From: Allobacillus saliphilus | GTDB taxonomy: Bacteria; Bacillota; Bacilli; Bacillales; Alkalibacillaceae | Direction: 5' to 3' | DNA length: 64,000 nucleotides | Assembly (NCBI RefSeq): GCF_018138385.1 | Contig: NZ_JAGSIE010000016.1 | Coordinates: 1 to 64,000, forward strand | Shown here: positions 5,158 through 49,713 of the stretch, in pieces | Position numbering within the stretch: position 1 is the first letter of the stretch | Layout of the letters: the number at the start of each line of letters is the position of its first letter | Translations under genes and position numbers: made by a program | Notes under the pieces: generated by a model | What the model was told of the DNA's origin: nothing | The model's input: only the letters and a program-made list of their open reading frames with translations | The model's database searches: none

Positions 5158-6052
5158 ACTTCAAGATCATATATCACGGTATGAGACAGATATGTTTCAT
5201 TACCCTGGCCAATTTATTCGATTGAAAAATGATCGATACAATCGTTTGAAAGAACAGTGGCAGGAACAATTAGCAGAACAGTTGGTTGTTGATGAAGTGG
5301 AAACTTCTGAGAATAAACCCTTTTTTCGAAAATTGTTGTCTCAAAAAGAAGAGACAGAAGAGCAGGAACCAACTGTTGAGTTGCCTGAGACAGAAGAAGC
5401 GTTGAAGCAATGGTTTTTGGATCAATTAATGGATTTCCAATTACGGTGGGCATCAGGAACAATAAAAGAAATTTCTTATCCTGACGCTTCGCTTCGAAAA
5501 AATGAACAACTAAAATACTTTTTACAACGATTCCCAGATAGTTACTTGTTAATGTACCAACCGTTGTTTTTGATTAAAAAAGCTTTGATTGAAGGCGGCA
5601 TTTTGTTAATAACTCCGCTAGAAATAGTATGTATTTCCTTTTTAGATTCAGAAGATTCTTCTGTCATTTATGAACCAATAGATGAACGAAGATGGTTGAA
5701 GAAAACGGAAAAGATGGAGCAAACGATCCTAAATCCGATGCTTCAATTAAATCGGATTGAAAAGACGGTCAAAAGTCTATTAGACTATCATGACATCCAA
5801 TTTCCAGTCAAAAAAACATTGATCGCCAAGAATGCTTCTATCCATTCCATTCAAGCTCATCTAAACACAGATTTCATTGATAAGCATGTCTATGATCAAT
5901 GGTTTACTAAACATCGCTCTGGAAGAACGCCATTAAAATACCAACAATTAAAAGTTGCAGAAGCATTGCTTTCCCACACACAAACGACGTCATTCAACCG
6001 GCCAGAGTGGGACGAGGCGGATAATGATTTTATGCAGCAACCGGGAGACTGA
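5141..6052 (+). CDS. conserved hypothetical protein, YtlQ-like by position
   Basis: About 303 residues with no domain recognised with certainty. The protein is soluble-looking, with an acidic, glutamate-rich segment around residues 55-85 and no signal peptide or membrane span. It lies between the ThpR gene, which it overlaps, and the lipid kinase gene three bases downstream, exactly where ytlQ sits in B. subtilis. Two in-frame starts exist, ATG at 5132 and ATG at 5141. Neither has a strong ribosome site; 5141 gives the N-terminus MGQLIKLQDH and is preferred. Function unknown. Confidence 0.7.
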   Translation: MGQLIKLQDHISRYETDMFHYPGQFIRLKNDRYNRLKEQWQEQLAEQLVVDEVETSENKPFFRKLLSQKEETEEQEPTVELPETEEALKQWFLDQLMDFQLRWASGTIKEISYPDASLRKNEQLKYFLQRFPDSYLLMYQPLFLIKKALIEGGILLITPLEIVCISFLDSEDSSVIYEPIDERRWLKKTEKMEQTILNPMLQLNRIEKTVKSLLDYHDIQFPVKKTLIAKNASIHSIQAHLNTDFIDKHVYDQWFTKHRSGRTPLKYQQLKVAEALLSHTQTTSFNRPEWDEADNDFMQQPGD

Positions 6053-46407: not shown

Positions 46408-46596
46408 ATGTACTTTTATCTTTTCCTCATAATGGTTATTTCTATTATTGCACTCATATTTACCTTCATGATTGGTAATAAAGGAAAGAAAGATTATAAT
46501 TTATACAAAAGTTTTTCTAGTTTGTCCGTCATGTATGTTATTTTGATTCCTTTAATTATCGTTTTTGGATTTATTGGTTGGTATTTATTTTTATAA
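46408..46596 (+). CDS. small two-span membrane protein, unknown
   Basis: A 62-residue protein: two hydrophobic segments (about 3-22 and 40-61) joined by a lysine-rich loop. AGGGAGGCC lies eight bases before ATG at 46408, and a terminator follows, so it looks like a real gene. No family recognised. It lies between the EAL gene and the spore-surface island and could be co-transcribed with the former. Confidence 0.7.
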   Translation: MYFYLFLIMVISIIALIFTFMIGNKGKKDYNLYKSFSSLSVMYVILIPLIIVFGFIGWYLFL

Positions 46597-46672: not shown

Positions 46673-46706
46673 CATTTACTACTAACTTTGGAGCCCAATT
46701 ATACAG

Positions 46707-47375
46707 TTAATCAACTTTTTTAACACAAATCTTAATGACATCTTTTCCATGATATCGATAAAATAATCGCTCACCTGCTTGATCGCTAGTAAAACCTGAT
46801 TCTTCGTTTAATATTTCACAAAAAAAAGTTTTTTTGGTTATTGTATATGTCTGATTCGGTTTAATTTCTTCGCTCTCGATTAAACAATGGAAGGGAAGCT
46901 CGTTTTCGATGGTACGAACTTCATTGTTTTCCGATACATATTGAAAGGTTAATTTTATATTTCCTAAAATAATAAGCACTCCATCGCAAACTTTCTTAAT
47001 TCGAGCTGTAATTTCTTTGTTTACGGTGACACTGCCTACACGAGCAGGAGGTATAAGCTGCGTTCGATGGTCAATTAATTGAACACAACATAATTTATTC
47101 TTAGCGGGTGGTCCCGGTGGTCCAGGTGGCCCAGGCGGCCCTGGAGGCCCTGGAGGCCCGGGCGAACCTGGCTCACCCTTTTCACCAGGTGGTCCTTGTG
47201 TGCCTCTCGGGCCTCGAGGACCTTGCTCGCCTTTACTACCCCTTTTTCCACGTTTACCTCTCTTGCCTGGAGGACCAGGACAGTTACACTCATGTGAGCA
47301 ATTACATGCTTTATCATTATTTATGTCCCATTTGTTCTGTTTGTCTTTATGCTTTTTTGAAGAATTAAAATCCAC
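46707..47375 (-). CDS. collagen-like spore-surface protein with SPOCS-like C-terminal domain
   Basis: A 222-residue protein in three parts. Residues 1-33 are polar and cysteine-rich ([10 protein letters not shown]). Residues 34-90 are 19 uninterrupted Gly-X-Y triplets: basic GKR repeats first, KGE/EKG salt-bridge types in the middle, six GPP triplets at the end. Residues 91-222 form a domain that aligns by eye with the N-terminal part of the protein encoded at 48004-48891 (CC-Q-DH-QL-PA at the start, DVIKICVKK at the end) and resembles SPOCS/DUF3794. It should trimerise as collagen filaments on the spore coat or exosporium. GTG start at 47375 with a perfect AAGGAGGTGA. Confidence 0.82.
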
Positions 47376-47457
47376 ACCTTCACCTCCTTGCTCATCAATA
47401 ACATTGTATGAAAGGAAGCATAAATTTGATTATGTTCAGCGATTAGTCGAAACCCAA

Positions 47458-47485
47458 ACAAATTAAATTCAAAAACCATACGATA
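47458..47485 (+). promoter_or_regulatory. sigma-K promoter for the cotZ/exsY-like gene
   Basis: AC at 47458-47459, 17-bp spacer, CATACGATA at 47477-47485: an exact fit to the late mother-cell consensus AC-N16-17-CATAnnnTA. It lies about 35 bp before the GTG start. Confidence 0.82.
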
Positions 47486-47519
47486 GTAAGACAGAATAGT
47501 CAGGGAGGGGGAGGATTGT

Positions 47520-47942
47520 GTGAGTAGAGATGAATGGGAACATACAGAAAGTAAATTTGACTGCGTTTGTGATACTTTATTATTAATCCAAAAAACACAG
47601 CAAAAAGCTAAGAGTATGTCCTATTGTGGGTATAACCATCGATATGTTCCTGTTGTTCTTCAGACACCGTACGGCAATCCGTTTGTTACTTTCGGCTCTG
47701 TTGGAAAAAAAGACTGTTTTTTGACCGTCTTCTTTAAGGTTATTCGAGTTGATTGTGAAAACAACTGTGCACAATTGGAACTGCTACGTCCCAATAGATC
47801 AATTGTTGATGAAGAAACAGGCGAAGTAGAGTGGGAAAAGATATGTCAGGTTGAATATGTAACAAAAACAAGTGAGTGTATTACTGTAAAGCTCGGTTGT
47901 TATAATGCAGTGAAATGTTTACCATACACATTCGGAAAATAA
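47520..47942 (+). CDS. CotZ/CotY/ExsY-family spore crust/exosporium protein
   Basis: A 140-residue cysteine-rich protein with the family pattern: CVCDTLLLI near the N-terminus, NPFVTFGSVGKKDCFLTVFFKV in the centre, AQLELLRP, and SECITVKLGCYNAVKCLPY near the end. These proteins self-assemble into disulfide-linked hexagonal lattices forming the spore crust or exosporium base layer. GTG at 47520 follows GGGAGGGGGAGG. It is preceded by an exact sigma-K promoter, divergent from the collagen-like gene and flanked by a second SPOCS-like gene. Confidence 0.85.
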   Translation: MSRDEWEHTESKFDCVCDTLLLIQKTQQKAKSMSYCGYNHRYVPVVLQTPYGNPFVTFGSVGKKDCFLTVFFKVIRVDCENNCAQLELLRPNRSIVDEETGEVEWEKICQVEYVTKTSECITVKLGCYNAVKCLPYTFGK

Positions 47943-47959
47943 CAATTATACAATAAAGT

Positions 47960-47992
47960 AGTACCTGCTAGAATGCTAGCAGGTACTTTTTT
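47960..47992 (+). terminator. terminator after the cotZ/exsY-like gene
   Basis: Perfect 12-bp stem AGTACCTGCTAG/CTAGCAGGTACT with an AATG loop, then T6. Confidence 0.92.
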
Positions 47993-48003
47993 GGTTTTAT
48001 ATT

Positions 48004-48891
48004 TTAACCACAGAAAGGAAAGCCATCTTCTGCATAGGCACCTTCGTTAAATGCTGATAAAATATCGATTGTACCAACTGGTGGCGGGTCTGGATTATTT
48101 GGGTCGGTATTAGCGAAATAATCATCAGCTGTTTCCATAGCCGTTGCGACCTCTTCAGGAGGTTGTAAACTTGGGTCCTCAACATTCAATTGACAACGAC
48201 GTAGATTTAATTTAGCTGCTAATAATTGGCGTCGGAGTTGGTTATATTGAGGTGGTGGTGTCGTTTGAATAATCGTTCTTGCTTCATCTGGTGTGGTTAC
48301 GATTATTGTGAAATCTCCTCCAGGGGTACCAATATTCTGAGGTAAATACATTTGATATTCAGAATCTGGAATTGAGTCATTTCTGTCCCCCCACCAGCCG
48401 ATGGTGTTAGTACAACACTCACCTGGTTCAGGCGGTTCTTCAGTTCTACGCACGCACACTTTGATAATATCTTTTTCGATTAGTTTAAAAGCGACCTCCT
48501 CCTCGAACTCATCGCCAATTAATGGACGCGTGCCAAAGTTTATTAATTCTTCGAATACTGTACCCAAAATTGTACATCCAACAACTTCAAAAATTTCTTC
48601 ATCTCCTTCGTTTGCATCATCACGGTCAATCATGCATTGAAAACGCACTTCGTCTTCCTTGACCGTATCTTCTTCTACAATTCCAGCTGAATTCAACGCT
48701 TGATAGGTGACTGTTTTCAATAACCGTCCACCGACAATGACTTTTTCCGGAACGACTCCTTCAATCCATGCTTCACAAGTTCTTTCAATCTCAATACCTC
48801 TTCTAACTATCGCTGGTTCTACAAGTTGCATCTTATGATCAAGCATGATTTGACAACATGTCTGAGGATTTGAGAGTAAATGATGATTCAT
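48004..48891 (-). CDS. SPOCS-like domain protein with a C-terminal GWW...AAKLN region
   Basis: A 295-residue protein. Residues 1-150 match the C-terminal domain of the neighbouring collagen-like protein and look like a SPOCS/DUF3794 module (PEKVIVGGRLLKTVTYQ, VRFQCMID, EKDIIKVCVRR). Residues 155-295 start CCTNTIGWWGDRND and include LRRQLLAAKLNLRRCQ, a spacing seen in secreted proteins with a CTxGYW...AAxLN module. The end is acidic, Asp/Pro/Asn-rich. A spore coat role is inferred from SPOCS and neighbours. An in-frame ATG at 48909 exists, but AAGGAGG at 48900-48906 serves ATG at 48891. Confidence 0.75.
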   Translation of the reverse strand: MNHHLLSNPQTCCQIMLDHKMQLVEPAIVRRGIEIERTCEAWIEGVVPEKVIVGGRLLKTVTYQALNSAGIVEEDTVKEDEVRFQCMIDRDDANEGDEEIFEVVGCTILGTVFEELINFGTRPLIGDEFEEEVAFKLIEKDIIKVCVRRTEEPPEPGECCTNTIGWWGDRNDSIPDSEYQMYLPQNIGTPGGDFTIIVTTPDEARTIIQTTPPPQYNQLRRQLLAAKLNLRRCQLNVEDPSLQPPEEVATAMETADDYFANTDPNNPDPPPVGTIDILSAFNEGAYAEDGFPFCG

Positions 48892-49040
48892 TATTTTTTC
48901 CTCCTTCATATTATGACTCTTTATATAACTATGATAAATATATGAAGAGGAAAGTGGCTATGCCCTGTATGTAAAGAAAAAGGCGGTTGAGCTAAATAGT
49001 CGGGTTGAATATAAAGACAAAACAGTACATTTTTCATACA

Positions 49041-49110: not shown

Positions 49111-49713
49111 TTAACGAGAGTAGTACTCAACGATTAACGCTTCGTTGATTTCAGAAGGCATTTCTTCACGCTCAGGGTAGCGGTTGAAAGTAGCTTCTTT
49201 TTTGTCAGCATCGACAGTTAAATACTCTGGTACAAAGTTATTCACTTCGATTGCTTCAACAATAATGTCAAGGTTTTGGGATTTTTCTTTCAATCCAATA
49301 ACTTGACCAGGTTTCACACGGTAGGAAGGAATGTCAAGACGGCTTCCATCTACAGTGATGTGACCGTGGTTTACAAGCTGACGCGCTTGACGGCGTGTAC
49401 GTGCAAAGCCAGCACGGTAAACAAGGTTATCCAAGCGAGATTCTAGCAAGATCAAGAAGTTCTCACCGTGAACACCTTTCATGTTACCTGCAATAACGAA
49501 AGTGTTGCGGAATTGACGTTCAGTAATTCCGAACATATAACGTAATTTTTGCTTTTCTTGAAGCTGTAAACCATACTCGGAAAGCTTTTTACGCTGTGTA
49601 GGACCATGTTGGCCTGGTGCGTAAGGACGTCTTTCCAATTCCTTTCCAGTTCCGGTTAAAGAAATACCGTAACGTCTGGATTTTTTCCAGAGAGAGCCTG
49701 TGAATCGTGACAC
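49111..49713 (-). CDS. rpsD: 30S ribosomal protein S4
   Basis: A 200-residue S4 protein: N-terminal [16 protein letters not shown], then an S4 RNA-binding domain (about 90-155, [20 protein letters not shown]). It binds 16S rRNA early in 30S assembly and represses its own synthesis. Start is GTG at 49713 with AAAGGAGGAGAAGCTC. It is monocistronic with a long leader and its own terminator, as in B. subtilis. Confidence 0.97.

Follow-up and report, generated by a model that had tools for sequence, protein, structure and literature searches.

What role is played by a group of three spore-surface-type genes beside rpsD in Allobacillus saliphilus, and how complete a system do they form? The group lies in a 64,000-nucleotide stretch of DNA (positions 1 to 64,000 of contig NZ_JAGSIE010000016.1, assembly GCF_018138385.1), hereafter called the window, and comprises the genes for a collagen-like protein that ends in a SPOCS-type domain (collagen-SPOCS), for a CotZ paralogue, and for a second SPOCS-type protein (SPOCS-B). 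A first-pass annotation of this DNA had described these genes as alternating in orientation beside rpsD, which they do (-, + and -; coordinates in Table 1), and had read them as a self-contained system of filament and basal layer. Our results partly support that interpretation, which pointed the right way but claimed too much in its details. We tentatively propose, with confidence a little short of even, that the trio is a sporulation-controlled island for decoration of the spore surface, in which SPOCS domains would provide docking and the CotZ paralogue would serve as an adaptor.

The spore-surface families named at first pass were all recovered by Pfam profiles. The collagen-SPOCS protein matched PF01391 at 42.3 bits (cut-off 27.2), contained 19 consecutive G-X-Y triplets, and was the sole collagen match at E ≤ 0.001 in its own genome (G000; 98% complete, 80 contigs); it also matched PF12673, the SPOCS profile, at 26.4 bits (cut-off 23.6), with 55 of 134 residues covered. 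The island CotZ matched PF10612 at 65.9 bits (cut-off 24), and its score against the NCBIfam model NF040827, a CotZ-related equivalog, was 33.7 bits, under the cut-off of 90. The two outer proteins share a domain of ~140 residues (BLASTP E = 1e-11, 24% identity), as had been predicted, and were the only PF12673 matches in the genome at E ≤ 1, a threshold at which this profile matched 15 of 19 aligned SPOCS domains. Three cysteine columns were invariant in all 19 of these domains, both window domains among them.

A linked group of CotZ and collagen-SPOCS genes recurs in other Bacillaceae, in support of the first-pass interpretation. A scan of a named collection with the SPOCS alignment alone as bait returned 38 loci, which are related and in some cases short. 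CotZ was divergent from a collagen-SPOCS gene in eight of these, with spacers of 127-187 bp: Ornithinibacillus californiensis, Filobacillus milosensis, Paraliobacillus salinarum, Paraliobacillus quinghaiensis, Aquisalibacillus elongatus, Aquibacillus halophilus, Virgibacillus sp. LDC-1 and Virgibacillus halodenitrificans. Six of the eight pair loci also encoded a second SPOCS protein on a Thr/Ser/Pro-rich stalk; the second SPOCS protein of V. halodenitrificans had no such stalk at the threshold used, and the locus of Virgibacillus sp. LDC-1 ends just past the collagen gene. CotZ was present in 8/11 loci with a collagen-SPOCS gene vs 0/27 others (Fisher p = 3.4e-6, to be read with the relatedness and truncation of some loci in mind). 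Outside the group the neighbourhoods varied by genus, those of Filobacillus and Aquisalibacillus being alike. Among 397 genomes drawn from the order, ten had SPOCS-profile matches, six of them with two or more copies, and collagen-SPOCS proteins were present in four of the ten (G000, G009, G039 and G341; G008, used below, was not in this draw). SPOCS-B itself had matches in 3 of 22 genomes of the family.

The CotZ paralogue of the island appears to be specific to this association. Three CotZ genes were found in the A. saliphilus genome: one beside fabI and a CotO-like gene (contig C20), one on contig C25, and one in the island. The fabI-cotO-cotZ arrangement is what we take to be the crust locus context of B. 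subtilis; its CotZ belongs to the same family and genome as that of the island but to a separate clade, and the stretch read around it held no collagen or SPOCS gene. In a midpoint-rooted FastTree of 29 CotZ proteins, all nine island copies formed one clade (support 0.998) with the fabI-side CotZ outside it, and identity to the window CotZ was 43-51% for island copies and 24-37% for the other CotZ proteins in the tree. A third CotZ gene was present in all four searched genomes with the pair (G000, G008, G009 and G341) and in one of the 18 that lack the pair; these gene counts, like the rpsD comparison described below, do not include G015 (82% complete). The single exception, G003, carries its third CotZ gene back to back with a gene that scores 29.8 bits against the endospore-appendage family PF13157 (cut-off 22; L131 4781-5227, minus strand, and 5420-5821, plus strand). 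This may be an ENA locus in a genome that does not belong to the B. cereus group, and the pairing of a CotZ paralogue with an appendage-type neighbour is compatible with a role as dedicated adaptor. Two further CotZ genes in the genome, together with the glycosyltransferases included in the group in relatives, leave it doubtful whether the trio by itself would make both a filament and a basal layer. The copy on C25 (13239-13715, L002) is a second non-canonical paralogue, of 200 residues; its neighbour is a nucleoside-kinase-like gene, and several other genomes of the family have counterparts of it.

The putative sporulation control of the trio is supported by SigK-type motifs. We took CATAnnnTA to be the SigK-type -10 motif and found it upstream of 21/52 SPOCS genes vs 28/250 of the remaining genes in these loci (p = 2.5e-6, an optimistic value because the loci are related); each upstream sequence was counted once, and at least 100 nt of it had to be usable. 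An earlier and wider count gave 23/54 SPOCS genes vs 49/360 others. On visual inspection, six of nine islands share a pattern ahead of this box in the collagen-SPOCS promoter. The spacing between CATACGATA and the upstream AC in the putative CotZ promoter is compatible with PMC517825. A simple sigma-70 scan returned 15 sites vs 10.2 expected and was not used.

Collagen-like adhesins exist in bacteria, and the collagen-SPOCS product might accordingly be a vegetative surface protein unrelated to spores. NCBIfam did return weak Scl-type adhesin matches, far under their cut-offs and arising from the collagen repeat. However, the CotZ neighbour, the SPOCS domain and the SigK-type motifs all point to the spore, and neither LPXTG nor an obvious signal peptide was seen by eye in the collagen frame; we regard a vegetative role as very improbable. 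The adhesin matches and a match to a His-Xaa-Ser-repeat family, likewise under cut-off, were set aside, as was a meaningless GreA match.

How the collagen protein would be attached is suggested by the position of the SPOCS domain in other proteins. Among 56 SPOCS proteins of the named loci, the domain was C-terminal in 54, with 17 or fewer residues after it. It was joined to collagen (11 proteins), to a Thr/Ser/Pro-rich stalk (13), to a region of multicopper-oxidase length (9), to almost nothing (8, nearly bare), or to other N-terminal regions (14), and one protein had a C-terminal extension, these classes being set by simple thresholds. Since SPOCS is the constant, nearly always C-terminal part of otherwise unrelated proteins, we infer that it acts as a docking module of the spore surface. 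The first-pass view of SPOCS as an anchor domain was thus a good guess that the C-terminal position favours, with the opposite polarity remaining as its rival. In that arrangement, which would resemble BclA and F-Anchor, the Cys-rich N-terminus would be tied by disulfides to the Cys-rich CotZ layer, the collagen rod would stand out from it, and SPOCS at the tip would trimerise and/or co-assemble with SPOCS-B. Collagens usually need a trimerising end domain, and by eye the window protein and the relatives read all begin with a Cys-rich segment that leads into GPPGK(R/K)G. The collagen anchor of F-ENA, moreover, shares a C-terminal domain family with the fibre subunit, much like the A/B pair of SPOCS domains here (PMC11952670). 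Against this, SPOCS also occurs without collagen, on multicopper oxidases and on nearly bare proteins, for which a role in attachment fits better, and we judge the inverted orientation rather unlikely.

More broadly, C-terminal SPOCS may be a general sorting module of the spore surface in Bacilli and Clostridia that carries varied cargo (collagen, mucin-like stalks, oxidases and unknown domains) and that in some Bacillaceae is combined with a dedicated CotZ adaptor, giving a separate class of collagen nap; we offer this as a proposal slightly more apt to fail than to hold. If true, SPOCS would add a route of spore attachment to those already provided by the leader of BclA and by the CotZ domain in ExsL, its ~140-residue C-terminal tag would be usable for spore display, and the islands would show a route to a collagen-bearing spore surface outside the B. 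cereus group. A literature search, with most subscription papers outside its reach, found no description of collagen-SPOCS or oxidase-SPOCS proteins.

The nine long SPOCS proteins (L059-L063, L065, L067, L071 and L079), mostly from Clostridia, are 734-747 residues in length and have a SPOCS-type end. L059 matched three multicopper-oxidase families above their cut-offs, and the other eight were alike, by eye, just before the domain. These proteins are a candidate class of spore-borne oxidases.

In the docking reading that we prefer, the three genes would be switched on in the mother cell from the SigK-type promoters whose motifs we observed. The extra CotZ would join a CotZ/ExsY-type lattice built mainly by other CotZ proteins, acting there as a dedicated adaptor, a role suggested by its family, its linkage and its clade. 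The SPOCS domains of collagen-SPOCS and SPOCS-B would then bind this adaptor or nearby coat proteins, and cross-links may form through the conserved cysteines of the domain, among them a CC pair where it begins. The collagen rod would point outward with SPOCS-B as a second surface component, which in most island-bearing relatives is instead a Thr/Ser/Pro-rich and probably glycosylated stalk. Several relatives have glycosyltransferase genes in between, which A. saliphilus would have lost or never had.

Several observations weigh against this reading. Three of the 11 collagen-SPOCS loci had no CotZ neighbour (Pseudoneobacillus rhizosphaerae, Paenibacillus sp. LHD-117 and Litchfieldia salsa, the last, L064, being cut off at the contig start), and SPOCS is widespread without a nearby CotZ, which suggests that the adaptor need not be the island CotZ. 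The promoter evidence was uneven: the strict motif CATAnnnTA preceded none of the eight relatives' CotZ genes and the looser CATAnnnT three of them, the strict form was present at one and the looser form at all three of the window's island genes, and the window spacer lacked, by eye, the promoter pattern of the six islands mentioned above. SPOCS-B scored only 12.9 bits against PF12673, under the cut-off of 23.6, and its architecture of an N-terminal domain with a 143-residue tail is unlike that of most relatives. The model of domain A, a six-stranded beta fold, found no clear match among solved structures. In fold searches that had no solved SPOCS structure as reference, the best Foldseek E was 0.012 and the best VIA hit had Z 5.2 and a root-mean-square deviation of 5.7 over 83 aligned residues. 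Sequence searches of the PDB with the A2 profile, CotZ and SPOCS-B gave nothing significant. ENA and other spore proteins were absent among the fold matches listed, which excludes nothing; alpha-crystallin-type folds (Z about 5) were within the range of common arrangements and were not used. The alignment for the fold omitted four pieces of the domain that scored under 120 bits. The model of whole SPOCS-B was confident in the domain only, its tail lying mostly under pLDDT 70.

The gene content of the relatives raises the question of whether the trio is complete. In Filobacillus, Aquisalibacillus and Litchfieldia, genes of glycosyltransferase type separate the two SPOCS genes. A search with the GT4 protein of the Filobacillus island found no close relative in A. 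saliphilus, whereas G008 and G341 had matches at 72 and 75% identity and G007 only a 28% match; DUF7164 was likewise absent from A. saliphilus and was found in one of seven genomes searched (G009). From the two kinds of glycosyltransferase that were searched for and not found here, the window trio would be either a compact version, perhaps without glycosylation, or a reduced relic. As a relic, it would be what is left of a larger ancestral glycoprotein island that decayed to three genes of little function. The missing GT4 relative and DUF7164 would agree with decay, though the latter was found in G009 alone, and so would the lack of a Thr/Ser/Pro stalk in SPOCS-B. Against decay, all three genes are open frames with ribosome-binding sites (seen by eye ahead of all three chosen starts) and plausible promoters, a hairpin separates the convergent pair, the three cysteine columns are invariant across the 19 domains, and the 19 collagen triplets fall inside the relatives' range of 18 to 42. 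We consider decay to a relic improbable. In the Aquisalibacillus island (L012 6534-9045), genes for ATP sulfurylase, APS kinase and a sulfotransferase stand beside the glycosyltransferases, so that sulfated spore-surface glycans are possible there.

Compared to described systems, the trio resembles those of ExsL, F-Anchor and BclA in outline and is not a member of any of them, because no BclA-C, DUF4183 or Ena match was found. ExsL, of L-ENA in the B. cereus group, is built into ExsY sheets through a CotZ domain at its N-terminus (PMC12921279); a CotZ-type domain thus ties a dedicated appendage to the ExsY lattice, and the extra CotZ of the island would, by analogy, be a comparable lattice adaptor. 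In ExsL, however, CotZ is fused to DUF3992, whereas here CotZ is separate and the partner domain is SPOCS, not Ena. PF13157 (Ena) had no match in the three trio proteins; a search of the whole genome with it was empty, as were its controls. F-Anchor of F-ENA is, like collagen-SPOCS, a collagen-like protein whose C-terminal domain family is common to a second protein of the locus (PMC11952670), but that domain is DUF4183 there, with no Pfam match in the trio, and docking in F-Anchor goes through an N-terminal leader to ExsF. The hairy nap of BclA on ExsY/CotY likewise combines a collagen-like protein with a Cys-rich lattice of the CotZ family (PMC8546674). The trio differs in lacking the BclA C-terminal domain in the Pfam scan: BclA-C or C1q-like domains gave no match, and the collagen-SPOCS protein returned only Collagen and SipL at E ≤ 1. 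SPOCS-type domains are part of spore-coat assembly in SpoVID, CotE and SipL (PMC10867305, PMC10659427, PMC6436350), and that of SpoVID interacts with CotE and SafA (PMC10867305). Those proteins are morphogenetic, with LysM in SpoVID and SipL, whereas the domain described here is mostly a C-terminal module on diverse proteins.

The island is present next to rpsD in A. saliphilus, where the first-pass annotation had placed it, and absent from the same site in G007 (95% complete), the single genome of the same genus among the 22 family genomes. The empty site in G007 makes a point similar to the first-pass remark on B. subtilis, in which this part of the chromosome would carry no coat genes. Identity between the two Allobacillus-type genomes is 98% for rpsD and 81-94% for the genes across the island, and in both genomes rpsD is followed by a small membrane-protein gene and an EAL-domain gene. 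The distance from rpsD to the small gene on the island side is 2514 bp here vs 176 bp in G007. Because terminator-like hairpins of both neighbours were recognisable in both genomes (by eye), the additional ~2.34 kb must separate a convergent gene pair, and since G007 has the flanking genes without the trio, this segment was, on comparison of the two sequences, gained here or lost in G007. SPOCS-B had no match in the whole G007 genome, which has two CotZ genes vs three in A. saliphilus. No trio was seen beside rpsD in the stretches read of G010 and G021, which belong to other genera. An origin from a mobile element was rejected: the list of repeats showed no obvious flanking duplication, the island is filled by its three genes with no room for a transposase, and the G+C content is ordinary (39.0% in the island vs 38.3% in the window).

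Table 1. Features of the island and its borders, in window positions.
Feature	Position	Strand	Remarks
Island	46690..49036		between terminators of small gene 46408-46596 and rpsD; boundaries approximate
Collagen-SPOCS gene	46707..47375	-	222 aa; GTG start, AAGGAGG 7 nt upstream; Cys-rich N-terminus, C-terminal SPOCS
SPOCS-type domain A, 134 aa	46710..47111	-	AlphaFold2 model: six long strands, mean pLDDT 95.4
Collagen triple-helix repeat	47109..47276	-	PF01391
Divergent spacer collagen-SPOCS/CotZ, 144 bp	47376..47519		127-187 bp in 8 named relatives
Putative SigK/SigE-like -10 of collagen-SPOCS gene, CATACAATG	47402..47410	-	begins 35 nt upstream of start codon
Putative SigK-like -10 of CotZ gene, CATACGATA	47477..47485	+	AC 17 nt upstream
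Island CotZ paralogue, 140 aa	47520..47942	+	PF10612; island CotZ clade
Terminator-like hairpin between convergent CotZ and SPOCS-B genes	47960..47987		found on both strands; clear T-run on +
SPOCS-B gene, 295 aa	48004..48891	-	N-terminal SPOCS-type domain and C-terminal tail
C-terminal tail of SPOCS-B, 143 residues	48007-48435	-	no Pfam match
SPOCS-type domain B	48436..48879	-	from alignment to domain A
Weak putative SigK-like -10 of SPOCS-B gene, CATATATTT	48936..48944	-	
rpsD, flanking gene	49111..49713	-	next gene after trio

The start of SPOCS-B is probably the ATG at 48891, because an AAGGAGG sequence ends 8 nt before it; an upstream ATG at 48909 is also present. By eye, the tail of SPOCS-B resembles that of a protein of Anaerobacillus alkalilacustris (L066 7971-8837). 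Among the other SPOCS loci, a SPOCS protein recorded for Chryseobacterium sp. ISL-80 (L069) was very like that of Cytobacillus (L073), and the record is probably mislabelled or contaminated. In G093 and G199, two SPOCS genes flank a gene for a protein of 224-236 residues (L035 7765-8475 and L037 7532-8206); that of L035 had no meaningful Pfam match.

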